Source: a virus
Length of the DNA: 34,197 nt
Reading direction: 5' to 3' (one strand)
Virus record (IMG/VR): IMGVR_UViG_3300024259_000825
Location: 1 to 34,197 of that record
Under the pieces are notes generated by a model. That model ran no database searches, was not told the DNA's origin, and saw only the letters and a list, made by a program, of their open reading frames with translations. The first letter of the stretch is position 1; every line of letters begins with the position of its first letter. The translations under genes and the position numbers were made by a program. Positions 14,786 to 33,501 of the stretch are shown one piece after another.

Positions 14786-14961
14786 TATGGTCCTCGTAAT
14801 TCCTTCTTGAGAGTGTCTATGTCCACGATTTGGGGTAGCTCGTCGCCAGCACAAGAGGCCTTAACGTCGCTACCCCACGGGCATTCCACGCAGACTCGAT
14901 CGTCTGCCCAGTACTTCCCGAAACAGTGACAGTCGCCAGGGGGTGATTCTAGAAGTTGTCC
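14785..14961 (-). CDS. Cys-motif extension of SSB, reached only by -1 frameshift
   Basis: An open frame of 58 codons plus TAA in the -1 frame relative to the end of the ssDNA-binding protein. It reads GQLLESPPGDCHCFGKYW, then DDRVCVECPW and further to KKELRGP, and its stop overlaps the recA ATG. The cysteines C11, C13, C24, C27 and C37 match the C-F-x-x-Y...C-x2-C...C pattern of the small protein at 19647-20078. From the preceding in-frame stop (inside the SSB gene) there is no ATG, GTG, TTG or CTG before the Cys motif. The SSB frame ends over G_GGC_CCG (14967-14961), which allows a slip from GGC CCG to GGG CCC and would give a 482-residue fusion. A sequencing indel in the G5C3 run is the main alternative. 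Confidence 0.6.
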   Translation of the reverse strand, partial: GQLLESPPGDCHCFGKYWADDRVCVECPWGSDVKASCAGDELPQIVDIDTLKKELRGP

Positions 14962-14974
14962 GGGCCCCCTGGCG
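14934..14974. repeat. 10-bp perfect hairpin spanning the SSB stop and slippery site
   Basis: CGCCAGGGGG at 14934-14943 and CCCCCTGGCG at 14965-14974 are perfect complements; allowing one G-U pair the stem grows to 13 bp (14931-14977). The loop contains the SSB stop codon, and one arm overlaps the slippery heptamer. No T-run follows, so it is not a standard terminator. It may affect frameshifting, mRNA stability or re-initiation at recA. Confidence 0.6.
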
Positions 14975-16235: not shown

Positions 16236-16952
16236 CTATCTCCTAGTCGATGGGGGAGGGGGAGGGGTACTTGTCTTGCGAGGCGGGGGAATCGGGGTTC
16301 TACCCCTAGTGACGGCCTGATCCTCAGACTCGGCCACGTCCGGCCTTTCATGCTCACTATGCCCAGGATGGCGGGTGGTTGTATCGTCATCCGCCTCTGG
16401 ATGGTGAATACGCCTGCTATGGGAAGAAGTGTCGGCCCCTGTGCTGCGCTCCCAGCCCTTGATAGCCCAGGTGCGCGCCTTCGCAGCTTCCAAAGCGGCA
16501 TGTAGAGTCGCCCACACCTCCTCGGCTTCTAGCTTGGCCTCGTACAGCTTTCGGTATTCCGGACGCGTACGCATATACGAATCAGCGTCGCCCTTGGTCG
16601 GCATCTTGGTAGGCTTCTCGTTGCCCTTGGCGTCTAGGCCTGGGTTCACGATACACGCGAACTTAGCCTTACGAGCCGCTCTCTCGTTGTTTACCACCTT
16701 CCAGACTGTCTGCTCGCGCCATACGCGATAGTCGACCTCGGCAAGTTCCTTATCCCGGTATGCCGCAGCGACCAACCGGCCCAACTCACTGATAATGCGA
16801 GGTGTGTTGGCGGCCTCTTGCTCTGGCTGCTCTGGGTCGATGGCGACCAAAGTAGCCAGGTACGCGCCGCTGTATTCCTGCCCCCTAAGCACGACAGGCG
16901 GCATAGCAGCCAACCCGGCGATCATTGCCCTAAACGGTGTTCCACTACTCAT
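16236..16952 (-). CDS. Probable UvsY-like recombination mediator
   Basis: In T4, UvsY helps UvsX displace gp32 from ssDNA. Here the 238-residue protein lies between SSB and DNA polymerase with recA close by. Residues 60-170 are helical: VDYRVWREQTVWKVVNNERA, then KPTKMPTKGDADSYM, then YRKLYEAKLEAEEVWATLHA and AKARTWAIKGWERSTG. The order (Tyr/Trp helix, basic K-P-T segment, Tyr-rich helix, then A-I followed by a helix end) is how I remember UvsY, but sequence identity is low, so this is an inference from pattern and neighbours. The tail is polar and ends with two polyproline runs (TPIPPPRKTSTPPPPPSTRR). It overlaps the polymerase gene by 8 bases. Confidence 0.55.
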   Translation of the reverse strand: MSSGTPFRAMIAGLAAMPPVVLRGQEYSGAYLATLVAIDPEQPEQEAANTPRIISELGRLVAAAYRDKELAEVDYRVWREQTVWKVVNNERAARKAKFACIVNPGLDAKGNEKPTKMPTKGDADSYMRTRPEYRKLYEAKLEAEEVWATLHAALEAAKARTWAIKGWERSTGADTSSHSRRIHHPEADDDTTTRHPGHSEHERPDVAESEDQAVTRGRTPIPPPRKTSTPPPPPSTRR

Positions 16953-19382: not shown

Positions 19383-19690
19383 TTACGCCTCCTTCGCAGT
19401 CCGAAGAACCAGTTACCGCTAACAGTAGGGTTTCCGGTAATTCTCCTAGCGACTGCGCTGAGGGTTTTATAGCGCTTGCCCTTATATTCATATCGCCACC
19501 ACCCACGGTCAGCGGCTTTCTGTCGCCTATACTCTTTGGCCGGACGATTTACAGGTGGAGGGGCGAAGGCGTGCCTAACGAAGACCTCGTGAACTTCGCC
19601 CTTCCACAAACGACGGATAGACGCCCCCTCTGGCAGGTCTCTGGAGTCAACGGGTACGGCTACGACCGACTCTCGATTTCTTTTTGCCAC
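19355..19690 (-). CDS. DUF2924-like protein
   Basis: The 111-residue product shows the order typical of DUF2924: a Pro-Gly/Glu-Gly start to a strand (DLPEGASIRRLWKGEVHEVF), then WWRYEYKGKRYKTLSAVARR, ITG and a W-F-F-G-L end. These proteins occur in phages and prophages; the fold resembles a small nucleic-acid-binding barrel plus helix, but the function is not known. GTG 19690-19688 is preceded by GAGGG. It overlaps the upstream gene by 44 bases and the downstream gene by 28. The middle contains APPPVNRPAKEYRRQK, a weak version of the Pro-basic tails. Confidence 0.7.
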   Translation of the reverse strand: MAKRNRESVVAVPVDSRDLPEGASIRRLWKGEVHEVFVRHAFAPPPVNRPAKEYRRQKAADRGWWRYEYKGKRYKTLSAVARRITGNPTVSGNWFFGLRRRRKCTASLLLK

Positions 19691-20078
19691 GGCGAACCCT
19701 CTTTTTCTTGGGAGGAGGAGGCGTAGCCGGGCGACTGGTTACCACTTTGATCCGCTCGTCTACCACTTGGCTCGGAACGCCAAGTGGTGGCGCGACTTTC
19801 CCACTCTTGAGGCGTTCGAGATAGCGACGATCGCCTCGCCAGCAAGACACGCCCACGATACACCCTTGGCACAGCGCACTCGCAGAATCGTACACCCGGC
19901 GGAAACACGACGGGTGGTCTTTGTCGCTATAGTCGCTTCTAAGGGACAGGAGCGCCTGTCCGCCCATTTCTGACATGCTGCTGATCGTACTGCTCGAGAC
20001 TCCGATAGATACCAAACGCTCGCGCGTCTCGTTCGTCAGCGGAATATCCAATGCGGATAACCTAGTCGATCCCATCAT
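19647..20078 (-). CDS. Cys-cluster protein with polyproline-Lys/Arg tail
   Basis: The 143-residue product has C58, C70, C73 and C79 in HPSCFRRVYDSASALCQGC followed by IVGVSC, that is C-x11-C-x2-C-x5-C. This resembles a motif seen in various phage proteins and is repeated in the SSB -1 extension and in the protein at 30806-31378; it may hold zinc or an Fe-S cluster. The C-terminal 30 residues are a disordered basic tail (TPPPPKKKRVRRGKKKSR). ATG 20078 follows GGAGGT and lies inside the sigma factor end. A nucleic-acid role is plausible from the tail; nothing is proven. Confidence 0.7.
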   Translation of the reverse strand: MMGSTRLSALDIPLTNETRERLVSIGVSSSTISSMSEMGGQALLSLRSDYSDKDHPSCFRRVYDSASALCQGCIVGVSCWRGDRRYLERLKSGKVAPPLGVPSQVVDERIKVVTSRPATPPPPKKKRVRRGKKKSRVGRSRTR

Positions 20079-20748
20079 AGACCTCCTCGTCTATCTGGTC
20101 TACAGCTTGTATACCCAAGGTCTTGAGAAAGTCCATCGCTTGCAACTTGGCACTAGCGATACGACCCGCAGCCCTTCGGTACCTTACCGTGTCTGTTTTT
20201 CCTGGTATACCGACCAACTCGGCTATATCGCCGGGGCTCATTTCGTCAACATACCGAAGATGCAGGATGGCGAATGCGGCCGGCGGTAGGTTACGCCGCA
20301 GTGCATACGTCAGACCTTGGATACCGTCGTCACGCTCCATACAGCTAAGAACCTCGTCCACGGGATCGGCGGTATCCGTGATATCGGGGTGTACATCTTC
20401 GCCGTCTTCGTCCGTAACAGGCATTAGCCACTCATGGTCTCGCATACCTGCGTTAATGGCTCGAATGATGTGGAGCTTTCGACGACGGGCTACCACGTTG
20501 ATAAACGGATCAGGCGGGCACTCGCCCTCCTTCCAGGTGTAGCGGCGCACCGCCAACAGAACCGCCTCTCGGATCTCGTTATACACGTCGTCTGCGTCCA
20601 TGCCGACTTTGTGGGTGTGCCATACCCGGCGAGACATGCGGCGAATACGCACATCCCACCTGGTGAGGACATCCAGCTCGTACGGCGACTGTCTGCTATC
20701 CCACCCGGGAGGCGGCGGGGGCTTTCGGGTACGAACTTTATCGCCCAT
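20062..20748 (-). CDS. Sigma-70 family RNA polymerase sigma factor
   Basis: Redirects host RNA polymerase to phage promoters. Region 2 is near residues 45-110 (MDADDVYNEIREAVLLAVRR, then PFINVVARRRKLHIIRA). Region 4 is near 150-205 (LPPAAFAILHLRYVDEMSPG, DIAELVGIPGKTDTVRYRRA), a normal helix-turn-helix for the -35 box. A linker with an acidic stretch (DEDGEDVHPDITDTAD) separates them, and no regions 1 or 3 are visible, so it is ECF-like in size (228 aa). The N-terminus carries the genome's tail type (MGDKVRTRKPPPPPGWDSRQ). It starts with TAATG overlap from the VWA gene. A natural target is the bipartite element at 26557 and 28362. Confidence 0.82.
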   Translation of the reverse strand: MGDKVRTRKPPPPPGWDSRQSPYELDVLTRWDVRIRRMSRRVWHTHKVGMDADDVYNEIREAVLLAVRRYTWKEGECPPDPFINVVARRRKLHIIRAINAGMRDHEWLMPVTDEDGEDVHPDITDTADPVDEVLSCMERDDGIQGLTYALRRNLPPAAFAILHLRYVDEMSPGDIAELVGIPGKTDTVRYRRAAGRIASAKLQAMDFLKTLGIQAVDQIDEEVYDGID

Positions 20749-22940
20749 TACCGCACCTTCCTAGACATGCCATATCCCCTCGTCAGAAGTTCGGTGAGCT
20801 TACGCAGCACACCATAAGTCAGACCTTCGCCAGCCTTGATCTCGACGCTGCCAGTCGGGGCCACGCCACGACCGCCCTTACTATCGGGGTAGTACTTGCG
20901 AAATGTCGCCATGTCGTGAATGCACACGCCAATACCGTAGACCTCGATACCCGCTCCCGCGACCTGCTGGACCACCTGCTCTAGGTGAGCACCTTCTAGG
21001 TGCCAGTCGTCAGCGCCGGCCGGGAGACCGTCGGCAACTACTAACATGATTACACGGTCATAGCTACCGCCATGCTTGGCCGCATACTTGGCCGCCCACA
21101 TAACAGACTCGCCATCTAGGTTGTTAAGGCGCCCTGTCACAAACGGGATCGCCGCGCCGTCGTCACTGATGCCGGGACTAGGCACAAATTCGTGCATTTC
21201 CATACCACAGCTATACCGCGCGTACTCTGCGCCATGTCCGTACGACGGGCGACTCGTATTGGTAGTGTAGCCCAGAACGGCGTGAGGGATGCGGCACCCA
21301 CTCATCGCCTTATGCAGAGCCATTGCCGTCACTGCGGCGTAACCCGCCTTCGAACACATTACCTTGCGATGCACAGTTCGCCCTTCTGCGTCCTTGACCG
21401 GTTCTCCCTTTCCATCGGTGACAGGTCGCTTCCTAGGGGCACTACAGCCCATGGAGCCAGAGCAGTCCACCAGGATACAGACATACGTTGACTCGTCTAC
21501 CGCGCGAAACAGGTCGGAGAAAATATCCGGTCCATTCGTACGGGTAGCAATCGCAGATATAGCGGCGTCGTCGATATCGGGCCCTTCTTCGAGACCCCCG
21601 ACTGCGATACACTGCCTAGACGCCTGTACAGCTCCACGAAGCATGGACATTAGCTGCTGGACTGACTGTCCAGCCGCCTCTACTAGACCCGGAACCATGG
21701 CGCGACCCGCGGCCCTCTCGCTCTCATCGTACTTTTTCACTGTGTCGCACGCCAGCGCCGCTGGGGACGCGATGTATCGCTTCGGGGCCTTACCCGTAGA
21801 GCGAATGTGGTTAGCGATTACGTCGGCCGCGGTGTCTACCTCGCCCCACTCACCGCCAGCCGCCTCAGCCGCGATCTCTCGCGTACCGTCTTCGTCGTAC
21901 ACAAAAGCCGTACCAGCACCGGGCTCGCCGTCCTCACCGTCCACCCCCTCGTGAGGGGTAGTCAGGGAGCCGTCAGGGGCGCTGGACGCGTCACTTGTGG
22001 CATCGGAGCCTTCCTCTCCTTCTTCTTCTCCGGAACCCGTGGACGGGCCCCCAGGCTCCTCGCCGTCACCTTCGGAACCTTCGCCCTCGGACTCGCCTTC
22101 ACCTTCACCTTCACCTTCGTAACCTTCGCCGTCACCTTCGGACTCGCCTTCACCTTCGGAACCTTCGCCCTCGTCCTCGCCGGCTTCCTCGTCCGATTCA
22201 GACTCTTCGGGTTCTTCTGGTGGCGGAGGAGGAGGAGGAGGAGGAGGCTCGGCAGCCAGCTTGATCGCATTGAACAGGTTTTCGGCAGCGTCGCACGCTT
22301 CCTTGGTAGAACTAGCGTCGAACAGGACTCGCACCTGAGGCCATACGGCCTCCAGCAATTGCCGAGGAGTCTCGTGCACGTCCTCGCGCTTCATTTGACC
22401 ACGGCCTAGCCGCAGAAGCGACTGAACCAGAGCACCGAACACGCCCTGAGGGCCTCCGCCATTGGCCGAGAACTCGGGATCGGTCGCTGCGGCTACTCCA
22501 CCAGTACGGCGATACAACCAACGACCAGTAGCCTCGAAATGGTAGCGAGAACCAGGATGGCGAATGGCGTATGTAGGCTCGATCCACAGATCCTCGCCCG
22601 CGTTGGCCAGGGTCGCGATCTTCGACCCAGTATCGGAACCGTGGCGCGCGTGCCACAACCTGACACGGGCTTCGTACTCGGTCATATCCGAGTGTATGAC
22701 GTGCGCGACTTCGTGATCCAGGATACCGCGCCATGCGTCGGCCAGGTCGGGATCTCCACCCAACTCGGTAGCCGAAAAGGCGGGCATATACAGTGTATGC
22801 CTGCTGCCGTCGTACCGGGGCACCTCGCCGCCGGATACGACTACGTTAAGGTCGGGAGACATCGCCAGAGACCGCGCCACCTTTTCAGCGACCGTCTCCA
22901 GAGAGGCCATGCGTTTATTTCGGTTTGCTTCGGGTTTCAT
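20748..22940 (-). CDS. CobT-like VWA protein with HEVAH motif
   Basis: Partner-type protein of the AAA+ ATPase at 24216-25283. Start ATG 22940 overlaps the preceding stop as ATGA; ATG 22952 is an alternative. Domains: an N-terminal part with DHEVAHVIHSD (H76, E77, H80), an HExxH metallopeptidase-like motif; a run of ten prolines followed by an Asp/Glu/Gly/Ser low-complexity linker near residues 235-300; and a C-terminal VWA domain with VDCSGSMG (MIDAS, 492-496) and MLVVADG (D637). CobT-like proteins act with CobS-like chelatase ATPases; what the phage versions do is not known. Codons look more optimised than in the polymerase region. Confidence 0.85.
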   Translation of the reverse strand: MKPEANRNKRMASLETVAEKVARSLAMSPDLNVVVSGGEVPRYDGSRHTLYMPAFSATELGGDPDLADAWRGILDHEVAHVIHSDMTEYEARVRLWHARHGSDTGSKIATLANAGEDLWIEPTYAIRHPGSRYHFEATGRWLYRRTGGVAAATDPEFSANGGGPQGVFGALVQSLLRLGRGQMKREDVHETPRQLLEAVWPQVRVLFDASSTKEACDAAENLFNAIKLAAEPPPPPPPPPPEEPEESESDEEAGEDEGEGSEGEGESEGDGEGYEGEGEGEGESEGEGSEGDGEEPGGPSTGSGEEEGEEGSDATSDASSAPDGSLTTPHEGVDGEDGEPGAGTAFVYDEDGTREIAAEAAGGEWGEVDTAADVIANHIRSTGKAPKRYIASPAALACDTVKKYDESERAAGRAMVPGLVEAAGQSVQQLMSMLRGAVQASRQCIAVGGLEEGPDIDDAAISAIATRTNGPDIFSDLFRAVDESTYVCILVDCSGSMGCSAPRKRPVTDGKGEPVKDAEGRTVHRKVMCSKAGYAAVTAMALHKAMSGCRIPHAVLGYTTNTSRPSYGHGAEYARYSCGMEMHEFVPSPGISDDGAAIPFVTGRLNNLDGESVMWAAKYAAKHGGSYDRVIMLVVADGLPAGADDWHLEGAHLEQVVQQVAGAGIEVYGIGVCIHDMATFRKYYPDSKGGRGVAPTGSVEIKAGEGLTYGVLRKLTELLTRGYGMSRKVR
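22020..22250. repeat. Low-complexity Pro-run and Glu/Gly/Ser linker in the VWA gene
   Basis: A GGA/GGT run encoding ten prolines (about 22218-22248) is followed on the minus strand by repeating GAG-GGC-GAA-type codons giving Glu, Gly, Ser and Asp for about 60 residues. Such repeats can expand or shrink by slipped replication. The protein meaning is a flexible, strongly acidic linker between the metallopeptidase-like and VWA domains. Confidence 0.8.
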
Positions 22941-24223
22941 CGGTTGAACCATGGTGTTTTGAGGGTGTCTACGGCGTAATACCCGCCCGTACCTGTCTTA
23001 GCTCTTACGCGATTGTTAAACGCAGCTCGGGCCGCGTCGAGATCGTGGAACACGTCGGCCGACTTACGACTAAAGTTGGGAGAACCGTACCGGCCATGGG
23101 AGATCGACACTTCGTAAGCACCCGCGACCTTGCCCTTTACCAGCAGAGCGATCAGGCGAACACAGTACCACTTGCCGCCGTGCTTAGTATCGGTTGCCCG
23201 ATGCATCATGAATTCGCACGCAGGATCGAACGGTGGCAAATCGAATTCCTTAAGGTGCGGCGGTGTCGCGTACTTACGACGTACGGATACAGCAGTTTCT
23301 TTACCAGGCCTATCCGGATAGCCGAGTTCTGGGTACACCGGGCGAGGCGTGCTGGGTACGGGCTTACCGTCCAACATAAGCGAGGAGTTGCCGACGTAGT
23401 ACAGAGAACCGTCTTCGACGAATGCCCACGCCACGACCTGAGCTTGGTTGACACACCGCTCATAGTCGTTATCTCCAATCAACTTGATCACCGAGCGAGT
23501 AGTGCCACTCTGTACCATCGTGGCCACGATCCCATCCTTGATCTTCCCACGCTCGGCCAACTCGGCTCGCATCAGTGCCGGGGCAGTCCGCATATCCAAC
23601 GTGGAGTCGTAAGCCCGACCCACGAGCACCGTACCGGTTTCGATTTCCGAGGAAGTCGCTGGATGGTACACGTTGACCAGGTTCTCCGGTTCTTCGGATG
23701 CTTCCGAGATAGACTCGTACGCCTTGCGAGTCTTACGGCGTCGCTTACGTCGAGAGGCGAAGTCGTCGTCAGTACCGGAGAAAATCCGAGGCTCTTCGAC
23801 CTTGGGTACGTCTCCGATCACCGGGTTATCAGACACGTCTGGAGCCGCGACCTTACCCGTGAGGACGGCAAAACTACGATGACCGAAGTATACCTCGCGC
23901 CAACCGGAGTACGACGGACCGTCTAGCAGGTTGCCGACAGCGCGATAGCCCAGCTTGATAGCCGACGAGATTGACATAACAGTGCCGATATTACTCGGGT
24001 TTACCGTGTCACCGATCCATTCTCGGAACCCGCCAACAGACGGCACTGCGACAGTCTCGAAGTAGTTGAGAGTCTCCATCGCGCCACTGACCATACGCAC
24101 GACCCACACCTCATATGGATCGTCGGCTGGATCGTGAGTCACGAAGATAACGAAAGCCCGTCGATTGTCTTCGTCCGGTCGGCAAACCGACGCAGCTACG
24201 ATTTCGTGGTTTACGTCACTCAT
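22937..24223 (-). CDS. Unknown protein between the CobS- and CobT-like genes, with RRKRRR motif
   Basis: A 428-residue product overlapping the ATPase gene by 8 bases behind GAGGT. The N-terminal part looks folded (AFVIFVTHDPADDPYEVWVV; GYRAVGNLLDGPSYSGWREV). Residues 152-163 read DDDFASRRKRRR, nearly identical to residues 143-154 of the protein at 2103-3254. The C-terminal part contains KWYCVRLIALLVKGKVAGAY and ends DTLKTPWFNR. No known motif otherwise. Being inserted between the two partner genes in a tightly coupled operon, it may be their substrate, adaptor or regulator; this is inference. Confidence 0.8.
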   Translation of the reverse strand: MSDVNHEIVAASVCRPDEDNRRAFVIFVTHDPADDPYEVWVVRMVSGAMETLNYFETVAVPSVGGFREWIGDTVNPSNIGTVMSISSAIKLGYRAVGNLLDGPSYSGWREVYFGHRSFAVLTGKVAAPDVSDNPVIGDVPKVEEPRIFSGTDDDFASRRKRRRKTRKAYESISEASEEPENLVNVYHPATSSEIETGTVLVGRAYDSTLDMRTAPALMRAELAERGKIKDGIVATMVQSGTTRSVIKLIGDNDYERCVNQAQVVAWAFVEDGSLYYVGNSSLMLDGKPVPSTPRPVYPELGYPDRPGKETAVSVRRKYATPPHLKEFDLPPFDPACEFMMHRATDTKHGGKWYCVRLIALLVKGKVAGAYEVSISHGRYGSPNFSRKSADVFHDLDAARAAFNNRVRAKTGTGGYYAVDTLKTPWFNR

Positions 24224-25283
24224 CGTTGACCTCGCCCTTGATATCGAACAGACGCCGAATCACCTCGACCACTGCATCGCGATCAATCTTGGAACGCATT
24301 TTGCGAAGGAAGGCGGGATACGCCGCCTCTAGGATGAAAGAATCGTATCGCTCGTCGGGAAGTACGATGGCGTTGCCGTCTGCGTCGATATAGCCCGCAG
24401 ACACTCGGCGAGCCCACGCGACCAACATACGGAAACTGAACGAGATACCGTGATCGGTACCAGTCCGGATTTTCTGTGCGACTCGGACCATGCCCTCCAG
24501 GTCCTCGGGGTCGATGCTGGGCACTTTGGACATAATGGCCTTATGCTCGTCGTGGACGCCCATATAGCCGACCTGGACACAGGAATCGAAGCGGTCCAGC
24601 AGAGCCTCGTTCATCTCGGGATTCGTACCGCCGTACGAGAACCGCGACTCTTCCTGGGCGGCGCCGATCGTGTTGTCGGTGGCGAAGATCCGAAAGTCGC
24701 CATGGCGAACGGCGTATCTCGCTGGCTGCGCCTCTTCGAGGTATACCTCTCCGTCGGGCTCGAGGATCGGGAACAGGGACAACGACACTGGCGGGGTAGC
24801 GCCAGACACCTCGTCCAGCAAAAGCCAGTCTCCGTACTCCATCGCCATAGTAGCGACACCAGGGACGAAAATGGTAGAACCGTCAGACGCACCGATTCGA
24901 CCTTTGAGGTGCCGCACGGTCGTACCGACATTGAGATTCACGCGATGAACGCGAATGTTGCAGTGCGCCGCGATCTGTCGAATCAGGGAGGTCTTGCCGC
25001 TGCCCTTGGGACCGACGACCAGGGACGGGCTAGACAGGCTTCCATCATGCGGCCAGGCGGCCCATGCGACTTCGCGGACCATATCCTCTCGGAACACATA
25101 GTCGGGATCGATAACGGGCACACCCTCGCGGCGTGGACCGGCGATCCGGTACAGACGCACGTTTACGCCTGGGATTCTGTACGGTTCCCAAGTACGCGAG
25201 GCCTTGCGGGCTGCCGGCTTACGGCGCTTGGCGACGGACTTCTTGGACTTGGGAGCGGGAGGGGGAGGGGCTTTACGAGCCAT
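24216..25283 (-). CDS. CobS/MoxR-like AAA+ ATPase with polyproline-basic tail
   Basis: Walker A GPKGSGKTS (91-99), Walker B WLLLDEVSG (D157, E158), sensor FATDNT (N204) and arginine finger LLDRFD (R231) give a complete AAA+ site of the MoxR/CobS branch. The family remodels proteins or drives metal insertion together with a VWA partner, here the CobT-like protein two genes on. The first 30 residues are a tail of the recurring kind (MARKAPPPPAPKSKKSVAKR). ATG 25283 follows AGGTGA, 10 bases after the preceding stop. Phage CobS/CobT pairs are known, but their target is not. Confidence 0.88.
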   Translation of the reverse strand: MARKAPPPPAPKSKKSVAKRRKPAARKASRTWEPYRIPGVNVRLYRIAGPRREGVPVIDPDYVFREDMVREVAWAAWPHDGSLSSPSLVVGPKGSGKTSLIRQIAAHCNIRVHRVNLNVGTTVRHLKGRIGASDGSTIFVPGVATMAMEYGDWLLLDEVSGATPPVSLSLFPILEPDGEVYLEEAQPARYAVRHGDFRIFATDNTIGAAQEESRFSYGGTNPEMNEALLDRFDSCVQVGYMGVHDEHKAIMSKVPSIDPEDLEGMVRVAQKIRTGTDHGISFSFRMLVAWARRVSAGYIDADGNAIVLPDERYDSFILEAAYPAFLRKMRSKIDRDAVVEVIRRLFDIKGEVNDE

Positions 25284-25293
25284 GTCGTTTCAC

Positions 25294-26445
25294 CTAGAAC
25301 AGCATCCCGTCATCGACGGGCTTGGCGGGAGTGGGGGATGACTTGCGAGGGGCAGAGGTGGTCTTTCCGCGGCGCTTGCGGCGAGCACTGCGCGAGGGCT
25401 TGGCGGGGGCTTCGGTCGCCTTGGACTTGGTAGCCTTGGCACCTGGCGCCGAAATGATCGCGTTGCCGTCGTCGTCGCGAGCGGGGTTACTGCCCGTCCG
25501 GTTCACGAGAACGCGAACGGTATCGGCGACTTGCCACACGGGGTAGTCGGGGTCCATCTTCCAGCGGCGAGCGTAGCGCAGCGAGTTCAACTCGTGGGTA
25601 CTAGCCGAGGTCGCCCAATGGATAAGAAGGGCATCCCAGTAGTAGCAGAACGAATCGACGATATCTTCTGCGTGCCTGCGTTCGTTGTAGTACACGGTAC
25701 CGCTCGACACCAACTTGACCAGGTCGTCGGTGCGCTTCTGGGTCAGGAAGCCCTCTCGGTTGTAGTACTTGAGAGTGGCTTTCGCCTTCTTCTGCCAGGG
25801 GCCGACCCGTCGATTCCAGCCAGCCTTGAGGTACGACCACAGGGACCGGACGTTGATCGGGCGGCGGACGTATTCGTATGCGTCCTTCAGCATGGCCATA
25901 TCGGCTACGTGGCATGGGTTCGCTTCCTGCCACTTCTCGCGCTCCTCGGCACGCTTCATACGGGAGATCGCGGCTCGCAGTCGCTTGAGAGCTTCTTCGG
26001 CGCTGATCTCGCCATCGACGGACAGAGCGTATTCGATGATGCAGTGCGATCCCGTCTTGACGCTGGTTCCCCCTGCGACGTTCTCCAGGGTGAACTCCCA
26101 GCGGCATCCCTGGTGTCCGCACAAGGAACAGGTCCAGTCGTTGCCGCGGTGGTCGACGATGGACGCGGTATCCGCCGTAAACTCGGCCTTGGCGCGCTCG
26201 GCCAAGTCGTCGTCAACGTGCGCGTAGACGGTATCGAGTTCCTTCGCCGTCAGGGCGTCCATGTCCCAGTCGATCTTCGCGAGTCGGTTGATCACTCGCT
26301 TGAGAGGGCGCGGACAGCAGGCGGCGTGCCTGACGAGATTTAGGGTAACCCGGCGAATGTGCGCTCGCTGGGTTCGGGAAGCGGTGGGCGCCTTTCGGCG
26401 AGTCGGGGGCTTGGGTGGGACTCGGACGCGGGAACGGACAGCCAT
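25294..26445 (-). CDS. Zinc-ribbon protein with basic N- and C-terminal tails
   Basis: ATG 26445-26443 is chosen because AAGGAGG precedes it; a frame from 26532 would run through a structured leader. The 383-residue product starts MAVRSRVRVPPKPPTRRKAP. Residues 104-136 hold WTCSLCGHQGCRWEF and then GSHCIIEY (C106, C109, C114, C135), like a zinc ribbon found in several phage proteins, where C-x2-C is followed by a GSxCI segment. A long helical part follows (LKRLRAAISRMKRAEEREKW). The C-terminal 50 residues are Lys/Ala/Pro/Ser rich and end VDDGMLF. A nucleic-acid-binding role is likely but unproven. It heads the CobS/CobT operon. Confidence 0.78.
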   Translation of the reverse strand: MAVRSRVRVPPKPPTRRKAPTASRTQRAHIRRVTLNLVRHAACCPRPLKRVINRLAKIDWDMDALTAKELDTVYAHVDDDLAERAKAEFTADTASIVDHRGNDWTCSLCGHQGCRWEFTLENVAGGTSVKTGSHCIIEYALSVDGEISAEEALKRLRAAISRMKRAEEREKWQEANPCHVADMAMLKDAYEYVRRPINVRSLWSYLKAGWNRRVGPWQKKAKATLKYYNREGFLTQKRTDDLVKLVSSGTVYYNERRHAEDIVDSFCYYWDALLIHWATSASTHELNSLRYARRWKMDPDYPVWQVADTVRVLVNRTGSNPARDDDGNAIISAPGAKATKSKATEAPAKPSRSARRKRRGKTTSAPRKSSPTPAKPVDDGMLF

Positions 26446-26556
26446 TTGATTGCCTCCTTGCGATCGTGCGACTGTTATTGTGGCGTGGCCTAGGTGCAAA
26501 GCACCGATACGCATTGGACAACGATCCAACACGTATCGGCGTCTTGCCGCTCACTC
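26446..26556 (-). promoter_or_regulatory. Structured leader of the zinc-ribbon/CobS/CobT operon
   Basis: About 110 non-coding bases between the element at 26557 and the start at 26445. They hold a strong hairpin at 26504-26539: CCGATACG pairs with CGTATCGG, then two G-U pairs, then TTGGA with TCCAA and a 6-nt loop. A smaller hairpin, GGTGC-AAA-GCACC, lies at 26493-26505. The ribosome site AAGGAGG lies just before the ATG. A regulatory RNA or mRNA-stabilising leader is plausible; no known riboswitch class is recognised. Confidence 0.5.
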
Positions 26557-26592
26557 TATATGTAGTGGCGAAAGTATAACCCGTGATCGCGG
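26557..26592 (-). promoter_or_regulatory. Bipartite promoter-like element, copy A
   Basis: On the minus strand it is CCGCGATCACGG, nine variable bases, TCGCCACTACATATA. It shares 12 + 14 bases with copy B (28362-28396), with the same 9-base spacing. It lies between two genes and ahead of the structured leader of the gene at 25294-26445. ATCACG and TACATA would be 17 bases apart, like -35 and -10 boxes for a non-standard sigma factor, perhaps the phage's own. Confidence 0.6.
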
Positions 26593-26610
26593 GCTTCTAC
26601 GGACACACGA

Positions 26611-26640
26611 CGCCCCCGCTAGGCGAACCCAGCGGGGGCG
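26611..26640 (-). terminator. Strong GC hairpin after the acidic/H1-like gene
   Basis: CGCCCCCGCT, 10-base loop, AGCGGGGGCG: a perfect 10-bp GC-rich stem 26 bases after the stop at 26666. No U-run follows, so termination may need a factor, or the hairpin may protect the mRNA 3' end. With copy B upstream it makes the 26666-28294 gene a likely single-gene transcription unit. Confidence 0.6.
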
Positions 26641-26665
26641 AATGTCAGCAGAGGTGCGCAGTCGT

Positions 26666-28294
26666 CTAGCGCTTGGCCTTGCGCTTGCCCTTGCCCTTCT
26701 TCGCGGGCTTGGCGGCCTTGGCGGCGGGCTCGGGCTTGGCGGTGGCCTTGGCCTTGGCCTTCTTCGCGGGCTTGGCCTTCTTCGCGGGCTTGGCGGCATC
26801 GGCCTTGGCCTTGTCGTCGGCCGCCTTCTTCGCCTTGGCCTCGGCCTCGCGCTTGGCCTTGGCCTTGGCCTTGCGCTCCTCGTCGCGCTTGGCCTTGCGC
26901 TCGGCCTTCTCCTCGACCTCGCGTTCGATCCGCTCGGTGGCCGCATCGGGGGTTTCGTACTTCGTGGGCTTGCCGTCGTCGTCGCGCTCGAGGACCTGCA
27001 GTTCGGAACGGTTGAACCAACGACGGATGATGTTGTTCGGACGCTCACGACCCGTCAGGACCCGGAACATGGCCGTGGCGTTGTCGAACTCGTCACCGAC
27101 CGCGATGTCGTCACGGCTACCCGAGAACTCGACGACCTTGAACCGGGCGCCTTCCAGGCATTCGATCTTGTACTCGCAACGCCCCCAGGGCTCACGGTGG
27201 TTCTTGAGGGCATGGAGGACGCGTCCCGTCTCGTGACCCGTCTGGGCACGACCCTTGCGGGAACCAGTGGACTTGGCCTTGGCGGGCTTCGTCAGCCGCT
27301 TGTGGCGCGACTCGAGGGACTTGAGAACCCCCGTGCGAGCCTTGCCGTCGTTCTCGGCGTCGATGAGGGACTGGACGAACTCGGCATCCTCGGTCTCCTT
27401 CAGACCCTTACGGATGTCGGGGGCCGACTGCGCCAGGAACGTGGCGACCTCGGAAGCGCCCTCGTCCTCGCTGAACTCGATGTCCAGGATGGCGGCGATC
27501 ATCTTCTTCTTGCCCATGCCGGTCACCTTGATCCCCAGGGGCTTGGCGATCGCCTTCAGGGCCTTGATGTCCATGCCGCCCAACTCGCCCTCGCGGTTCT
27601 CGCGGGCGTCCTCGCTGGTGTCGTCATCGTCGCCGTCCTCGTCATCGAAGGACCACTCGGCCTCCTCGGCCGTCTCCTGCAGAGCGGCCCAGTCGGTGTC
27701 GTCGTTCTCGAGGAGCGCGGCGAGCTTCTTGCGGGCATTCTTGGCCTTCTTCGCCTTTTTGATGCCGAGGTCCGCGGCCAGCTCGACGACGGACTCATCG
27801 TCAACGTCGGCGAGTTCTTCGACGTAGGAACGCAGGCCAGCGCCAGGCTCGGGGGCCTCGTCCTCATCTTCGTCGTCCTCGTCCTCGTCCTCATCTTCGT
27901 CGTCCTCGTCGTCCTCGTCGTCCTCGTCGTCCTCGTCGTCCTCGTCGTCCTCGTCCTCGTCTTCGTCTTCGTCTTCGTCTTCGTCCTCGTCGTCGTCTTC
28001 GTCCTCGTCGTCGGGGAGGAAGTTGTGGAGCCACTCGAGGTACGCGGCGTCTTCTTCGTCTACGGTCACGTCGCCCTCTTCCCAGGGGGTCACGCAGGCC
28101 AGGATCTCGTAGAGGCCTTCGGTGTCGCTGTCGGGGATCACGATGTCGCGGTGTCCGCGCTTGCCCTTGGTGGCCTTGCCCTTGTAGTCCTTCGGCAGGT
28201 CGCCGGCTTTGCCCTTGAGGGTGAGGGTGAGAGAGTTACCTTCGTCGACTGCGACGACGGCGAGAGCGATGAGAGTCAGCATGATGGCTGGCAT
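26666..28294 (-). CDS. Protein with 52-residue Asp/Glu tract, SAP-like parts and histone-H1-like tail
   Basis: A 542-residue product, ATG 28294 behind a full AGGAGGT. In order: a short beta-like start (MLTLIALAVVAVDEGNS; SLTLTLKGKAG); an uninterrupted Asp/Glu tract at 95-146; two helical segments resembling SAP/Rho-N type DNA-binding motifs (VVELAADLGIKKAKKAKNAR; MDIKALKAIAKPLGIKVTGM); a folded-looking middle (FKVVEFSGSRDDIAVGDEFD); and from about 455 a Lys/Ala/Pro tail like histone H1 (KPAKKAKPAKKAKAKATAKP). Codon use is very uniform with GC-ending codons, suggesting high expression. A DNA-organising or chaperone-like protein is my inference; I know no family with this layout. Confidence 0.82.
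   Translation of the reverse strand: MPAIMLTLIALAVVAVDEGNSLTLTLKGKAGDLPKDYKGKATKGKRGHRDIVIPDSDTEGLYEILACVTPWEEGDVTVDEEDAAYLEWLHNFLPDDEDEDDDEDEDEDEDEDEDEDDEDDEDDEDDEDDEDDEDEDEDEDDEDEDEAPEPGAGLRSYVEELADVDDESVVELAADLGIKKAKKAKNARKKLAALLENDDTDWAALQETAEEAEWSFDDEDGDDDDTSEDARENREGELGGMDIKALKAIAKPLGIKVTGMGKKKMIAAILDIEFSEDEGASEVATFLAQSAPDIRKGLKETEDAEFVQSLIDAENDGKARTGVLKSLESRHKRLTKPAKAKSTGSRKGRAQTGHETGRVLHALKNHREPWGRCEYKIECLEGARFKVVEFSGSRDDIAVGDEFDNATAMFRVLTGRERPNNIIRRWFNRSELQVLERDDDGKPTKYETPDAATERIEREVEEKAERKAKRDEERKAKAKAKREAEAKAKKAADDKAKADAAKPAKKAKPAKKAKAKATAKPEPAAKAAKPAKKGKGKRKAKR
26669..26932. repeat. Lys/Ala/Pro codon repeats (H1-like tail)
   Basis: GCC-AAG-GCC-AAG and GCG-AAG type codons repeat with variations across about 260 bases and encode the basic C-terminal tail of the acidic/H1-like protein. 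The regularity produces long antisense open frames, which are artefacts. Confidence 0.8.
27857..28012. repeat. GAC/GAG trinucleotide repeat encoding the Asp/Glu tract
   Basis: About 156 bases made almost only of GAC, GAG and GAA codons on the minus strand (GTC, CTC and TTC on the plus). The internal order (GAC GAC GAG repeated) points to tract growth by slippage or unequal recombination. Length variation among related phages is expected. Confidence 0.85.
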
Positions 28295-28342
28295 TTTCGT
28301 ACCTCCTATGGGGGTATCAGGGGTCGTTCGGGTTGCGGAAAA

Positions 28343-28356
28343 GGCGGTTACCCGCC
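28343..28356 (-). promoter_or_regulatory. GNRA hairpin plus U4 in the leader of the acidic/H1-like gene
   Basis: On the minus strand GGCGG-GTAA-CCGCC-TTTT: a 5-bp GC stem closed by a GUAA tetraloop and followed by four T residues. It lies shortly after the copy B element and 49 bases before the start codon, so it could be a weak attenuator or a 5' mRNA stabiliser. Confidence 0.45.
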
Positions 28357-28361
28357 GTCTG

Positions 28362-28396
28362 ATATGTAGTGGCGACTGGACAGTCCGTGATCGCGG
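28362..28396 (-). promoter_or_regulatory. Bipartite promoter-like element, copy B
   Basis: On the minus strand CCGCGATCACGG, nine bases, TCGCCACTACATAT, directly after the primase stop codon and ahead of the acidic/H1-like gene. The two conserved blocks and their spacing match copy A at 26557-26592, while the nine bases between differ, as expected for a two-part binding site. Confidence 0.6.
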
Positions 28397-29515
28397 TCAG
28401 TTTAGAGAGCCGATAAACGGTTTTAGACGCGTAGAACGCCGCTTTTCGTCGGATGGCTCAAAAGTCTGTAAAGGATCAAGCTGCCAATCGGCACGGGCGA
28501 TTCCTGCAATCGCAATGCACCTATGCCGCCCTATAGACCCGGGATCATCGTCTTTCGGCAGTCGGCCCACGCGGACCGGCAGGATACGCGAAAGCATAGT
28601 CGCCGCTTGCAAAGACCCGCGGTAGCCCTGGCGATCACCGTCAAACAGGATCACCGCTTCCGATGCCCCTGATCCCCCGATCAGTGCCGCCTGTTGCGGG
28701 CTCACGTTAGCCCCCAGCACCGATACGAAACCAGGCCCGCATACGATCGCGTCCATGGGGCCCTCCACTACATACACCGCCGTTCCGTGCTGGACTAGGT
28801 GCAAACCGATTACTACGTCGTTAGCTGTAGCACAACCAGCGACAGGCCTCAGACCCCACTCGCTATGGTAGCAAGTACAGTTAGCAGGGTGCCCGACCTC
28901 GCGACATGGCCGAGGAAGATTGACCACCTTTGGACCGCGATCCTTGATAGCCCTAGTCACCCAGAACACGAAACGACCACCAGGGTTCCAAGCAGGTACG
29001 ATAATCCTATTTTTCAAGGCAAAGTTAGCCTTAGTCCTTTGCCCATCGCCGTGGACCGTACCCAACGAGAATAGCCCGATATGCTCCTCAGGGACCTTAC
29101 GCTTACGAAGATACGATCGCTGCGGACCTTTAACCGCCCATTCCGTGCCAGGCGGCATCGGGGCCTCGGGTAGCTTGTACGGTCGCCTAAACGTAACACT
29201 GTTAAGAGCCGCGATCGGGCCAATCGCCTGGCCTGCTGCGTATGCGGCGATAATCTGTATCGCGTGCTCTAGTGGTACCCCCGCGATCGCGGACACTAGG
29301 AGCACTGGCGACCAGCCCTTAAAAGAACACGTCCAGCACTGCCATACTTTCCGCTCGACGTGGACAGCGAGTTTACCGCGCCCGCACATCGGACATTCGC
29401 AGACCCACTCAGGGCCCGAGATCGATACTACGTCGCCGTGCTCCCTCAGCCACGTCCCAAGGCGAAAGCGAGACTCGGAACTAGTAAGGGGTACAGGGCG
29501 GCCACGCCTAGACAT
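28397..29515 (-). CDS. dnaG: DnaG-like primase
   Basis: Makes RNA primers at the fork. An N-terminal zinc finger has CPMC (41-44) and CWTC (60-63). The TOPRIM domain shows VVEGPMDA (E251) and VILFDGDRQG (D292, D294). The middle has the basic primer-template part (SYLRKRKVPEEHIG). An extra Cys/His cluster, PCREVGHPANCTCYHSEW, at 203-220 just before TOPRIM is unusual and may bind another zinc. At 372 residues it is shorter than bacterial DnaG (about 580) because the helicase-binding domain is missing or reduced. It starts two bases after the DnaB-like stop, so the two are co-expressed. Confidence 0.88.
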   Translation of the reverse strand: MSRRGRPVPLTSSESRFRLGTWLREHGDVVSISGPEWVCECPMCGRGKLAVHVERKVWQCWTCSFKGWSPVLLVSAIAGVPLEHAIQIIAAYAAGQAIGPIAALNSVTFRRPYKLPEAPMPPGTEWAVKGPQRSYLRKRKVPEEHIGLFSLGTVHGDGQRTKANFALKNRIIVPAWNPGGRFVFWVTRAIKDRGPKVVNLPRPCREVGHPANCTCYHSEWGLRPVAGCATANDVVIGLHLVQHGTAVYVVEGPMDAIVCGPGFVSVLGANVSPQQAALIGGSGASEAVILFDGDRQGYRGSLQAATMLSRILPVRVGRLPKDDDPGSIGRHRCIAIAGIARADWQLDPLQTFEPSDEKRRSTRLKPFIGSLN

Positions 29516-29517
29516 GC

Positions 29518-30867
29518 TTAATCCTCGTACGATGGAGGCTCAGGCTCGCACTCCTCGCCCAGTACAGAGAAAGCCCCATGATCATAGTCAGTAGAAACGC
29601 GCACGATAACACCGTCAACACTATCGCGATACTTGCCCAAAAATACGCGGGCTTGGTTCGCTTCTTTCTCTTGCCTCGTGCGATTAATCGAAATGATAGA
29701 GTCAGCGACACGGACCTTTTCATAGCTATCGGCAATCTCCTGGGGCCTGAGTACGTGCTCGCGCTCGTCAGCGCCGCTGGACGGACGCTGGGCCTGGCTC
29801 GGGGATGATACAGCGTATCCGGGGTGCCCTTTGTACTCGGTGCGCTCTGACAGCGCCTTAAGCTGCCTAAACGCTGTGCGCTGCCTAAGGTATTCGTTGT
29901 CGCCATCGGCCCGCATTAGATCACCGTAATCGACGACAATCATATCAGGCACCCATCCATGGGCGCGCCTTAGCTCTGCGAGTTCCCCTAGGATGTCATC
30001 GAACGTAATGTGCCACGCGTCACGATCGTTAAACCCGCGAACTACCATGTTATGGCGCAGAATATCGTATTCTCGCCTTAGCGCAGACTGTACCTTGGCC
30101 CCGAACTCACCTCGCCGTACGAACCCATACATCTCGCCGCTAAACCGGGCCTCGTACCTATCCTCGGTTTTTGAACGCCCACCCTCAAGTACGAAATGCA
30201 AGGCGCGACGCCTCATGCGAGTACACACAAAACCCCGCTGAACACACCAGTATGTCTTACCAATACCGGAATACGCGATCGGAACTTCCAGTTCACCGTA
30301 CGATAGCCCACCGTGCATGGCCTTATCAATAGGGGCGATTCCGATGGGGAAAAAGTCCATTTGCGACGCGATCAATTGCCGCCTTGCTTGTCGCTCGTGG
30401 AAATCCTCGAAGAACCAGCCGCGATCCGTCGTAGATATCTGAATCGCCTGTAACTCCTCGATACGATGCATCATCTTACGCTCTGCATCGTTGTACTTAC
30501 CCGCGTTCCACGCCTCTCTGGCCTCTTCAAACCCTAGGCGAAACACTTGTCGGCGAGACCACTCTATGATCTTCTCACGTACATACGAATCCTCTCGCCA
30601 GTCAGGCGCACTAGCCACAATAGCGGCGACACCTGCTCTAGATGGATCTTCAGACGGCAAAGACGCCGACTCGGTGGTCAGCTCCATAGTAGTCGGGTAC
30701 TTGCTAGTAGCCACGACATTCCACGCCCACAACGATGCCGGATCCGTAAACCCCAGGCGTCCTTCCGTTACGAACCGCTTGACCAGGAATAGCAGAGAGG
30801 GATCGTCAATACAGGCGTGAATCAGCACTCTCTGAAAGTCGGGGCCGAATTCTTCCGCTCCTAACAT
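29518..30867 (-). CDS. dnaB: DnaB-like replicative helicase
   Basis: Unwinds DNA ahead of the polymerase. I start at ATG 30867 (MLGAEEFGPDFQRVLI), which has GAGGA at good spacing; an upstream in-frame ATG at 30927 lacks one. The N-terminal domain (1-150) is helical. The RecA-fold domain has Walker A AYSGIGKT (198-205, first Gly replaced by Ala), Walker B DMIVVDYGDLM (D313), and SSPSQAQRPSSGAD in the H4 position near 370. The protein ends with a short acidic tail. It overlaps the upstream gene by 62 bases, the longest overlap in the window. Confidence 0.88.
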   Translation of the reverse strand: MLGAEEFGPDFQRVLIHACIDDPSLLFLVKRFVTEGRLGFTDPASLWAWNVVATSKYPTTMELTTESASLPSEDPSRAGVAAIVASAPDWREDSYVREKIIEWSRRQVFRLGFEEAREAWNAGKYNDAERKMMHRIEELQAIQISTTDRGWFFEDFHERQARRQLIASQMDFFPIGIAPIDKAMHGGLSYGELEVPIAYSGIGKTYWCVQRGFVCTRMRRRALHFVLEGGRSKTEDRYEARFSGEMYGFVRRGEFGAKVQSALRREYDILRHNMVVRGFNDRDAWHITFDDILGELAELRRAHGWVPDMIVVDYGDLMRADGDNEYLRQRTAFRQLKALSERTEYKGHPGYAVSSPSQAQRPSSGADEREHVLRPQEIADSYEKVRVADSIISINRTRQEKEANQARVFLGKYRDSVDGVIVRVSTDYDHGAFSVLGEECEPEPPSYED

Positions 30868-31378
30868 GACGATTCCTCGCAGCTTTACTACATTCGGCGC
30901 TAACTGGACACGAATTACACCAATCACTATCGGCGCAATATCCGCCGGTCATATAGCCAGACGATCCTAGGCATGCGTCGTAAGCCCGTGCTCGGTGCAT
31001 TGCCGCCCTAAACGCCTCTTCGTGCGGGCGAAGTCCGCCAAGCGGCGCCCCGACCGTATCGTCCACAATACCCTCGGTTACGATCTCTTCCCCAGAAGCT
31101 CTAGCGGACAAGTCGCCCACGAACTCCCGGTATTTATCCAAAAACATAACACTCGCCAACTGAGCGGCGGGTATCTGCCTAACCCACTTAATCGCACCGT
31201 GGCGAGCCCTAATCCATGTCGCTGGATTTACGCGGTATCGCCTACAGAACAAACCGAACAAACGAAGATCCCCTCGCAGTTCGTCCGTAAGTACCATGTT
31301 ATCGTAGAACCGGAACTGAGCCGTTTCTCGCTTGTACGTTACGAACAACGCGTGAGAATCGTAATTCGGTTTACCCAT
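30806..31378 (-). CDS. Unknown protein with Cys cluster near the C-terminus
   Basis: ATG 31378 lies inside the end of the upstream gene (ATGGGTAA overlap), with GAGGA before it. The 190-residue product has aromatic-rich helical parts (LRLFGLFCRRYRVNPATWIR) and C136, C148, C154, C157 and C163 in GYCADSDWCNSCPVSAEC, a C-x5-C-x2-C-x5-C pattern shared with the protein at 19647-20078 and the SSB extension. It is placed between an unknown gene and the DnaB-like helicase; a helicase loader or primosome role is possible from position only. Confidence 0.7.
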   Translation of the reverse strand: MGKPNYDSHALFVTYKRETAQFRFYDNMVLTDELRGDLRLFGLFCRRYRVNPATWIRARHGAIKWVRQIPAAQLASVMFLDKYREFVGDLSARASGEEIVTEGIVDDTVGAPLGGLRPHEEAFRAAMHRARAYDACLGSSGYMTGGYCADSDWCNSCPVSAECSKAARNRHVRSGRIRPRLSESADSRLY

Positions 31379-31865
31379 TATCGACAGTCCTCGCCCTCGC
31401 CGTCTGAGAGGCTTTTGGAGGCTCGCATACGCCAGTAATGTCCTGGTGCATGGTGATAGGATCGTATACTGTGTGCTCCCCACCTACGAACGGGTGGAAA
31501 TCAATAGCGATAGGGGGTTCGCCTTCCATAACTGCCTGCATATGGTACGCCTGTAGGATCTCCTGTAGACGAGGAAGAAGCGGACCAGCTACGGCGCGAC
31601 ACAATACGTTGATATTCAGTAGCAGCCACCCGTGCCCACGAGATTTCCAGAAGTGGAGGAGACCGCCGGCCGTAAGGCCTGGCACCCCTGCCGGCCACAT
31701 AATCGTGCGGCCCTCTGGATCTACCTTAGGTGGGCGAGTGGGCATGATAGCCCCGATTTCCGATGCTCGGGTTAGCACTTGTGCGACCTTTTCCGGGTCC
31801 ATGTCCTTAGCAACATGAGACCACGCCGAATCGCCCAAAGTACGCATCCATGTTTGGCTATTCAT
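31371..31865 (-). CDS. Unknown protein, first gene behind an extended -10 promoter
   Basis: The 164-residue product starts MNSQTWMRTLGDSAWSHVAK after GGAGGT. The middle (TIMWPAGVPGLTAGGLLHFW; GWLLLNINVLCRAVAGPLLP) is hydrophobic but interrupted by polar residues, more like a folded core than membrane helices. No cysteine or catalytic motif. It opens the transcription unit that continues through the Cys-cluster protein, DnaB and DnaG. Function unknown. Confidence 0.72.
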   Translation of the reverse strand: MNSQTWMRTLGDSAWSHVAKDMDPEKVAQVLTRASEIGAIMPTRPPKVDPEGRTIMWPAGVPGLTAGGLLHFWKSRGHGWLLLNINVLCRAVAGPLLPRLQEILQAYHMQAVMEGEPPIAIDFHPFVGGEHTVYDPITMHQDITGVCEPPKASQTARARTVDNG

Positions 31866-31914: not shown

Positions 31915-33501
31915 CTAACCAAGCCCACGCAACCAACTATCAAACTGTGTTGGTTGCATTACGTCGGCTTGGAATTCTCTACGATACAGATCAAGCCTAT
32001 GCGCAGCTTGTTTAAGAAGTGCCTCGTTATGGTTGTCTGCGAAGTCTACAATTACCCCAAATTTCTTACCCTCGCTCGCTGTCAACACGCGATAGAAGTC
32101 TTGGACGACCTTTACCTTTGACCGGCCAGCAGCCGCATAGATCAGGGCGTCGGCCGCTGGTACGTCGATACCTTCGCCAATTACGGATGTCCCGATGATA
32201 ACCTTGACTTTACCAGACTGCATAGCTGCGATCGCGTCTGCCACGGCCTGGTGGTTGCGTCCGTCTACTTGCACACTGTTAGCCGTAATCTCGTATAGAC
32301 TTTCTGCGTGCTTGATCTCCTTGACCAACACCAGCACACGGCGACCAGCGGCAACCAACTTAGCGCTTGCCTGTGCAATCAACTTGTTACGATCGTCGTT
32401 CTCGACAACGCCGTTAACGTAATACGTCCTAAAACCGCAATCGTCTACGCGACCAGGTACGCGCAGCATAGCCACGAATGCCGGAACCAACCTACTAGCG
32501 GCGATCATGTCAGACACACTACGGCGATACACTGTCCTGGACACAACAGATCGCATTAGCATGTCTTTTCCATCCGCTCTGTAGTTCGTACCGGTCAAGC
32601 CTAGGCGATAATACGCGTTATTAGCTGACAGCGATATGTCTTGCCAGGTGTTAGCCGCGGAGTGGTGGAATTCGTCAATAATCAAAAGATGCCGGCTACC
32701 AATGCCCGTAATACCTCGGCGATGCTGCCCTTTGCGCTGAGGCCTCGGCCCGGCAGCCGTTCCTGGCGTTACCACCCATACGCGAGTACCAGCCATAAGG
32801 CGCTTTCGCTTAGCGTTAGGCGCGCCACCCGTGATTTGCATTACGTCGCCGTGAGGCATGTATCTACGCAATGCTTTTACCGTTTGTGTTGCAATACCCA
32901 CAGTTGGCACGACATACAACGTAGGGACAGACAGCGTAATAATAACTGCGATGGCTATGTGTGTCTTACCAGATCTAGGCGGCAACTCCACGATCCCTCG
33001 ATCGTTCTGCACAAATGCGTCTAGTGCTTCCTTCTGGAAATCGTAAAGAGGCGGAACTGGTACGATAGAGAACGCCGCTGTCGGCGGCGCTACCCTTTCG
33101 TCGAACACATCCGCGATTAGCCCTAATCGTAAGCGCAAAGCCCGCACGACATGAGGCAGGAGACCCGTTTGGAATCCTCCGTCTGCCCCGACCATACGAA
33201 TCCAACCATCCCACGACCCTCGTTGCCTTAAAACCTGCTCGATCATGTCCGGCGACAGATACCCGTATGGGCAGCCTACCGCCTCTAGCTGGCGATGTGT
33301 GTCAAGGTCGGCGTAAAGTCGTTCTATATCCTTATACGGCCCATGCCTCTTACGCCGCATAAAGAACGATTTGATAATCGCCTGCGCTGGCGGAGGCGGT
33401 AACTCAATCTCTCGGTAGGCTACTAACCGGCGAATATCCGAAATGACGCCCCTATCCGCCAGGAGCCTAGAAGTCGAGTTGTTTACGATTATTTGAGCCA
33501 T
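31915..33501 (-). CDS. SF2 helicase of UvsW type
   Basis: Branch-migration helicase that remodels recombination intermediates and R-loops. Motifs in order: YDFQKEAL (Q-like, about 153), ELPPRSGKTH (Walker A, 174-180), LLIIDEFHH (DEFH, 276-279), LGLTGTNYRADG (motif III, 303-305), VIIGTSVIGEGIDVP (motif V, about 435) and DFYRVLTASEG (motif VI, Q-x-x-R changed to F-Y-R). Length 528 fits T4 UvsW (587). There is no strong ribosome site before ATG 33501; the GGGAGG upstream is held in the hairpin at 33510-33537. A PPPP segment (35-38) lies in the N-terminal part. Confidence 0.9.
   Translation of the reverse strand: MAQIIVNNSTSRLLADRGVISDIRRLVAYREIELPPPPAQAIIKSFFMRRKRHGPYKDIERLYADLDTHRQLEAVGCPYGYLSPDMIEQVLRQRGSWDGWIRMVGADGGFQTGLLPHVVRALRLRLGLIADVFDERVAPPTAAFSIVPVPPLYDFQKEALDAFVQNDRGIVELPPRSGKTHIAIAVIITLSVPTLYVVPTVGIATQTVKALRRYMPHGDVMQITGGAPNAKRKRLMAGTRVWVVTPGTAAGPRPQRKGQHRRGITGIGSRHLLIIDEFHHSAANTWQDISLSANNAYYRLGLTGTNYRADGKDMLMRSVVSRTVYRRSVSDMIAASRLVPAFVAMLRVPGRVDDCGFRTYYVNGVVENDDRNKLIAQASAKLVAAGRRVLVLVKEIKHAESLYEITANSVQVDGRNHQAVADAIAAMQSGKVKVIIGTSVIGEGIDVPAADALIYAAAGRSKVKVVQDFYRVLTASEGKKFGVIVDFADNHNEALLKQAAHRLDLYRREFQADVMQPTQFDSWLRGLG

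Follow-up and report, generated by a model that had tools for sequence, protein, structure and literature searches.

Long aspartate/glutamate (D/E) repeats have, to our knowledge, been studied almost solely in eukaryotic DNA-binding proteins, in connection with target search and self-inhibition. HupB, an HU protein of actinobacteria, carries a Lys/Ala/Pro tail that binds DNA. The actinobacterial HU protein HupS likewise has a Lys/Ala-rich tail (PMC11229371), and in HMGB1 and engineered homeodomain fusions D/E repeats lead to dynamic autoinhibition and to a faster target search among decoys (PMC10250230). Here we analysed a stretch of viral DNA of 34,197 nucleotides (IMG/VR record IMGVR_UViG_3300024259_000825, positions 1 to 34,197; hereafter the window), in which a minus-strand gene (26666-28294) encodes a 542-residue protein combining a long D/E tract with a Lys/Ala-rich tail. 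We tentatively favour the view that this protein would be made in abundance, bind nucleic acid in association with replication and use its D/E tract to mask its basic tail and domains dynamically, in the manner of HMGB1.

The protein is built of blocks, all encoded on the minus strand. Residues 95-146 (27857-28012) are exclusively Asp or Glu, which makes exactly the 52 consecutive acidic residues counted in the preliminary description; D/E runs in the other genes of the window do not exceed 3 residues. This tract is preceded by an N-terminal region that falls in no known family (residues 1-94, 28013-28294) and followed by a helical stretch with the basic patch KKAKKAKNARKK, possibly forming degenerate SAP-like or PWI-like helices (residues 147-220, 27635-27856), by a Rho_N/SAP-like helix-extension-helix (residues 237-275, 27470-27586), by a predicted beta-beta-beta-alpha-alpha-beta-beta domain (residues 355-446, 26957-27232) and by the C-terminal tail (residues 455-542, 26669-26932). 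The tail, first described as 88 residues of Lys/Ala/Pro, has this length and is rich in Lys and Ala, with some Glu (29 K, 27 A, 10 E and 8 R), but its prolines number only 5 and are confined to the last ~40 residues. In total, acidic residues number 149 and basic ones 96, giving the protein a net charge of -53, and local windows outside the D/E tract reach up to +18 per 60 residues.

The long D/E run thus lies beside basic segments, the arrangement by which D/E-repeat autoinhibited DNA-binding proteins are recognised as a class. HMGB1-type proteins share with the 542-residue protein an acidic repeat adjoining basic DNA-binding parts, electrostatic autoinhibition being the proposed mechanism; they differ in being eukaryotic, in possessing HMG boxes and in having a C-terminal tract of 30 residues, and the two are not homologous. 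The tail resembles the Lys/Ala-rich DNA-binding tails of HupB and HupS, but the phage protein lacks their HU domain (no Pfam or NCBIfam match), and HupB and HupS lack a long D/E tract. The charge layout had also been likened to eukaryotic histone chaperones fused to an H1 tail. This likeness proved to be compositional only, and the D/E-tailed phage single-stranded DNA-binding proteins (SSBs) and primase-neighbour proteins described below are a nearer comparison. Linker histone H1 combines a winged-helix domain with a K/A/P tail; Pfam gave no linker-histone match, and the tail is alike in composition alone. Nor did Pfam detect the nucleoplasmin or NAP fold of an acidic histone chaperone core, and residues 148-455 had no relevant sequence match in the PDB.

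SAP/Rho_N-like helices had been part of the same proposal. A degenerate motif of this type is probable at residues 237-271, but its Rho_N scores (17.3-18.9 bits, the highest with E 0.0015) stay below the curated cut-off of 24.9, and Pfam gave no SAP match. At this site, a profile derived from SAP-like motifs found elsewhere in phage proteins scored 7.2 bits, compared with 7.1 for the highest-scoring of 1000 shuffles, and AlphaFold, used with a single sequence, predicted helices with a pLDDT of about 50-60. The PWI profile reached 16.7 bits with residues 147-220 (cut-off 22), where the low-confidence model also has helices. Residues 1-94 had no Pfam, PHROG or NCBIfam match above chance, and their single-sequence model (pLDDT 60) had no significant fold match; the top Foldseek match for the N-terminus, the C-terminal domain of T4 MotA, was discarded (E 0.29). 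The core strands of the beta domain were modelled from the single sequence with a pLDDT of about 60-70, and no Pfam or PHROG family matched residues 355-446; a RAMA domain was considered for them and rejected, as nothing in the window matched PF18755 at E ≤ 10. The mean pLDDT of the single-sequence models was 48.9 and 60.4, and Foldseek returned nothing significant. All structure models are of low confidence because homologues to align do not exist. No domain with proven DNA binding was found above the curated Pfam cut-offs, and no gp32/SSB core was matched in PHROG or Pfam.

Viral contigs, GTDB genomes and 50,697 phage records were searched with the whole protein, its N-terminal part and its central and beta domains, and the only match was a sister contig, IMGVR_UViG_3300022916_000439, which is 99.95% identical without gaps and has the gene at unchanged length. 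Searches guided by the neighbouring genes (primase, DnaB, MoxR and a primase alignment) returned the sister contig, contig L010 and the distant contigs L003-L006. The DnaB of L010 is 58% identical; this fragment stops 38 codons into the gene at the corresponding position, with no visible similarity there. In the distant relative L003, the gene after DnaB (14153-14863) encodes a protein rich in Lys, Ala and Glu that lacks a D/E tract and may have a winged helix at its C-terminus.

The gene had been described as standing alone with its own expression signals, and most of these were confirmed. A perfect ribosome site, AGGAGG, lies 7 nt ahead of the ATG start codon. With an ENC of 30.7 (GC3 0.88), the gene is by far the most codon-biased of the 35 in the window; the next gene (25294-26445, minus strand) has an ENC of 39.8 and all others 46-61. 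Omitting the D, E, K and A codons gave an ENC of 30.8, so the bias is no by-product of composition. Past the stop codon lies a GC-rich terminator-like hairpin (26611-26640, minus strand; 13-bp stem, -34.8 kcal/mol, z -3.7, without a T-run). The proposed leader hairpin did not stand out from chance (z -0.62, 44 of 200 shuffles folding equally well). The promoter-like element corresponds to a block of 35 bp, CCGCGATCACGG-N9-TCGCCACTACATAT, found ahead of this gene (28362-28396, minus strand) and again ahead of the next one (26558-26592, minus strand). The two copies agree at 26 of 26 core positions, a repeat found in 0 of 100 shuffles, and neither the window nor the sister contig contains a further copy. 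No sigma-70 consensus was found in the block; its left half is near-palindromic, which makes a combined operator and promoter plausible. Based on the promoter-like block, the hairpin past the stop and the codon bias, we conclude that the gene is most likely its own, strongly expressed transcription unit, and its product would be abundant. A 639-residue plus-strand ORF over the same DNA (26450-28369) was rejected as a gene: it mirrors the GAC/GAG/AAG/GCC codons and is an antisense frame held open by codon bias. The next gene, second only to this one in codon bias and likewise preceded by the 35-bp block, encodes a protein with a CxxC motif and a basic Pro/Lys tail; no relatives of it were found among annotated phages, and its match to phrog_27072 is weak.

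The contig is a fragment, on which the gene is located within a replication module. Directly upstream on the same strand lies the DNA primase gene (28397-29515, minus strand; zinc and TOPRIM parts; phrog_47, E 2e-32), preceded by a DnaB-like helicase gene (29518-30927, minus strand; phrog_19, E 9e-30). The minus-strand order is UvsW-like helicase, DnaB-like helicase, primase, the 542-residue protein, the CxxC protein, MoxR ATPase, WGR-like protein, CobT-like VWA protein, sigma-like protein, DNA polymerase A, gp32-like SSB, RecA-like recombinase, SbcD, SbcC and RuvC-like protein, where RecA, SbcCD and RuvC were assigned by reading the sequence. The SSB of this phage (14949-16232, minus strand) has a proline-rich and not an acidic tail; its assignment is new and came from an HMM made exclusively of D/E-tailed SSBs of other phages (E 1e-13), the Pfam gp32 profile giving only a subthreshold match (E 0.1).

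To see how this architecture is distributed, viral contigs were scanned for runs of at least 45 consecutive GAN (D/E) codons. Such runs are common (at least 119 stretches listed, L016-L134), and many belong to phage SSBs with Lys-rich tails. The matches listed include 79 distinct complete ORFs, which were chosen by the D/E tract itself. At least 23 of these 79 among the matches listed are SSBs, 16 of them gp32-like and 7 OB-type (with an OB seed set picked by eye), and four further proteins among the matches listed appeared SSB-like by eye (L055, L098, L097 and L118:10209). A 40-residue window with at least 40% K/R within the last 120 residues was present in 28 of the 79 listed D/E proteins versus 42 of the 755 remaining ORFs in these loci, a set that includes non-genes. 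Outside the SSBs, a gene for replication or recombination lies within 6 kb of 25 of the 56 listed D/E proteins, which is a raw count without a matched control, a few of the 56 being SSB-like. We conclude that the combination of poly-D/E and basic tail is a recurrent phage architecture.

The D/E-tailed phage SSBs (L027, L033, L042, L118:10209-11399, L005:13820-15229 and Hiddenleaf gp47) resemble the 542-residue protein in their long D/E tracts and their place in a replication or recombination module; often they have Lys-rich tails, and some have SAP/Rho_N motifs. In the L005 protein, for example, a gp32-like SSB is combined with long acidic tracts, a C-terminus rich in Lys and SAP/Rho_N motifs, of which there are three. 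They differ in having a recognisable SSB domain, which is lacking in the 542-residue protein, whose phage encodes the separate Pro-tailed SSB. Gp47 of Microbacterium phage Hiddenleaf (L011:4392-5435), annotated as 'hypothetical protein' beside RecA, resembles an SSB of the OB type that carries acidic tracts together with a pair of SAP/Rho_N-like motifs.

A second group comprises stand-alone proteins of six contigs (L125:3072-4166, L121:8113-9117, L118:2756-3850, L022:2990-3985, L043:8325-9386 and L128:3460-4290), which share with the 542-residue protein a poly-D/E tract, a basic linker or Lys-rich tail and a same-strand place downstream of primase/helicase. In L125, the protein (95 D/E; K/A/P tail) is encoded 56 bp after the primase on the same strand, with DnaB further upstream. 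It also lies downstream of the primase on the same strand in L022, L118 and L121, as well as in L128, where the primase was identified by eye; in L043 and L018 the protein is encoded further downstream. L118 has both a stand-alone protein of this type and a D/E-tailed SSB-like protein, the latter adjoining RecA, SbcD and SbcC. The nearest in layout is L121, with a SAP-like N-terminus, acidic tracts, a K-rich linker, a globular domain and a K/A tail; its gene has an ENC of 39.7 (neighbours mostly 53-61), and codon bias of such strength is absent from the analogues of L125, L118, L022, L018 and L043. The analogues differ from the 542-residue protein in their globular parts, which have no detectable sequence homology to it, and belong to families without a name or a tested function. 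The only sequence match to them spans 41 SAP-like residues of the L043 protein (E 0.14), and tblastn of two analogues against annotated phages gave no match. The likeness therefore appears to be one of architecture and place, possibly due to convergence.

In the reading that we tentatively prefer, the Lys/Ala-rich tail, the basic patches and the SAP/Rho_N-like and beta domains would touch DNA (or RNA), and the D/E tract would fold back electrostatically onto these basic parts, masking them until DNA displaces it. The acidic tract may in this way regulate the basic tail. The preliminary description had further suggested that the protein might compact or shield phage DNA, or remove nucleoid proteins of the host. 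Masking would permit high protein levels without sticking to all cellular nucleic acid (RNA, host DNA), and the protein would load preferentially onto exposed phage replication intermediates beside primase, helicase, SSB and recombinase. A module of acidic tract and Lys-rich tail that is fused to the SSB in many other phages would here be a separate, separately promoted gene, next to a Pro-tailed SSB. Action on replicating phage DNA is suggested because of the gene position and the module shared with SSBs, and, given the look-alikes at similar places in unrelated phages, the protein would probably coat or organise newly copied phage DNA while restraining its own tail. Against this reading, the surplus of 53 acidic over basic residues may make the net affinity for DNA low, Pfam recognised no domain of proven DNA binding above a curated cut-off, and the analogues resemble the protein in layout and place but not in detectable sequence. 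A broader proposal, possible but doubtful in our view, is that phages repeatedly and independently evolved replication-locus proteins of poly-D/E and Lys-rich tail, near primase or as SSB tails, which would serve as a chromatin or condensate factor organising replicating phage DNA, with a stand-alone, strongly expressed version carrying a new beta domain here. If true, this would suggest that phages encode their own chromatin-like factors that are unnamed in current family libraries. The recurrent D/E repeats in phage SSBs and primase-neighbour proteins would offer a small, tractable system for studying the role of such repeats in DNA replication.

In a rival explanation, the protein acts as a DNA mimic or sink. 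Its working part would then be the poly-D/E tract in the free state, which would titrate basic proteins of the host away from DNA, such as nucleoid proteins of the HU/HupB type and restriction or other DNA-binding defence proteins, and the tail would only tether the protein to DNA. The uniformly negative 52 residues, the net charge of -53 and the high predicted expression fit such a stoichiometric competitor; however, the 88-residue basic tail and the SAP-like helices would be superfluous in a pure mimic, and the recurrent fusion of such tracts to phage SSBs favours replication over counter-defence. We therefore regard this explanation as unlikely.

Similarly unlikely is a high-copy virion or head-maturation protein (internal, scaffold-like or genome-associated). 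Genes expressed at capsid level typically have a strong codon bias, and this gene has its own promoter-like block; the tail and baseplate genes of the sister contig have ENC values of 46-61, a comparison that does not include the major capsid gene, which is seen on neither contig. Short segments of the protein match connector or unknown PHROG families (E 0.0005-0.1), among them residues 290-340 with phrog_32210 and phrog_29632 (E 0.0005-0.001; families of unknown function, picked from several fragments), but such weak matches do not hold up as evidence. Moreover, the gene lies inside the replication module and not in the block of tail and baseplate genes that the sister contig shows, and the syntenic analogues likewise adjoin primase.

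It is improbable that the architecture merely reflects low-complexity drift, in which slippage-prone GAC/GAG and AAG/GCC repeats would have lengthened a modest DNA-binding protein, the tract doing no more than keeping a Lys-rich protein soluble. A 9-bp register (GACGACGAG) is discernible in the DNA of the tract, so DNA-level repeat expansion probably contributed, and among the 79 D/E proteins listed tract length is uncorrelated with local basic charge (rho 0.07). On the other hand, the tract codons are mixed (29 GAC, 14 GAG, 7 GAA and 2 GAT), the tract length is identical in the sister contig and the layout recurs across unrelated phages. Finally, we consider it very improbable that the protein regulates transcription or termination, whether it bears Rho_N to antagonise host Rho or RNA polymerase or to serve them as an adapter, or acts as an RNA chaperone: Rho_N is the strongest family hint and the analogue directly follows a sigma-like gene in L118 and L043, but the hint is under the cut-off, phage SSB-like and endonuclease proteins make wide reuse of Rho_N, and no RNA-binding family matched.

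Several other genes of the window deserve mention. The replication module includes a CobT-like VWA protein with an acidic low-complexity stretch of its own (20748-22952) and a MoxR/CobS-like AAA ATPase (24216-25283); the gene at 22937-24223 encodes a subthreshold C-terminal WGR-like domain (17.7 bits, cut-off 22). A subthreshold WhiB-like cysteine cluster at 30806-31402 hints at an actinobacterial host, no more. A run of 4-5 prolines, mostly beside K/R (for example MARKAPPPPAPKSKK and RRAPPPPPARKK-end), lies no further than 60 residues from one end of the protein in 9 of the 35 genes of the window, as a shared terminal tag: 6021-6596, 9339-9986, 13343-14854, 14949-16232, 16236-16952, 19647-20078, 20062-20748, 24216-25283 and 31915-33501.
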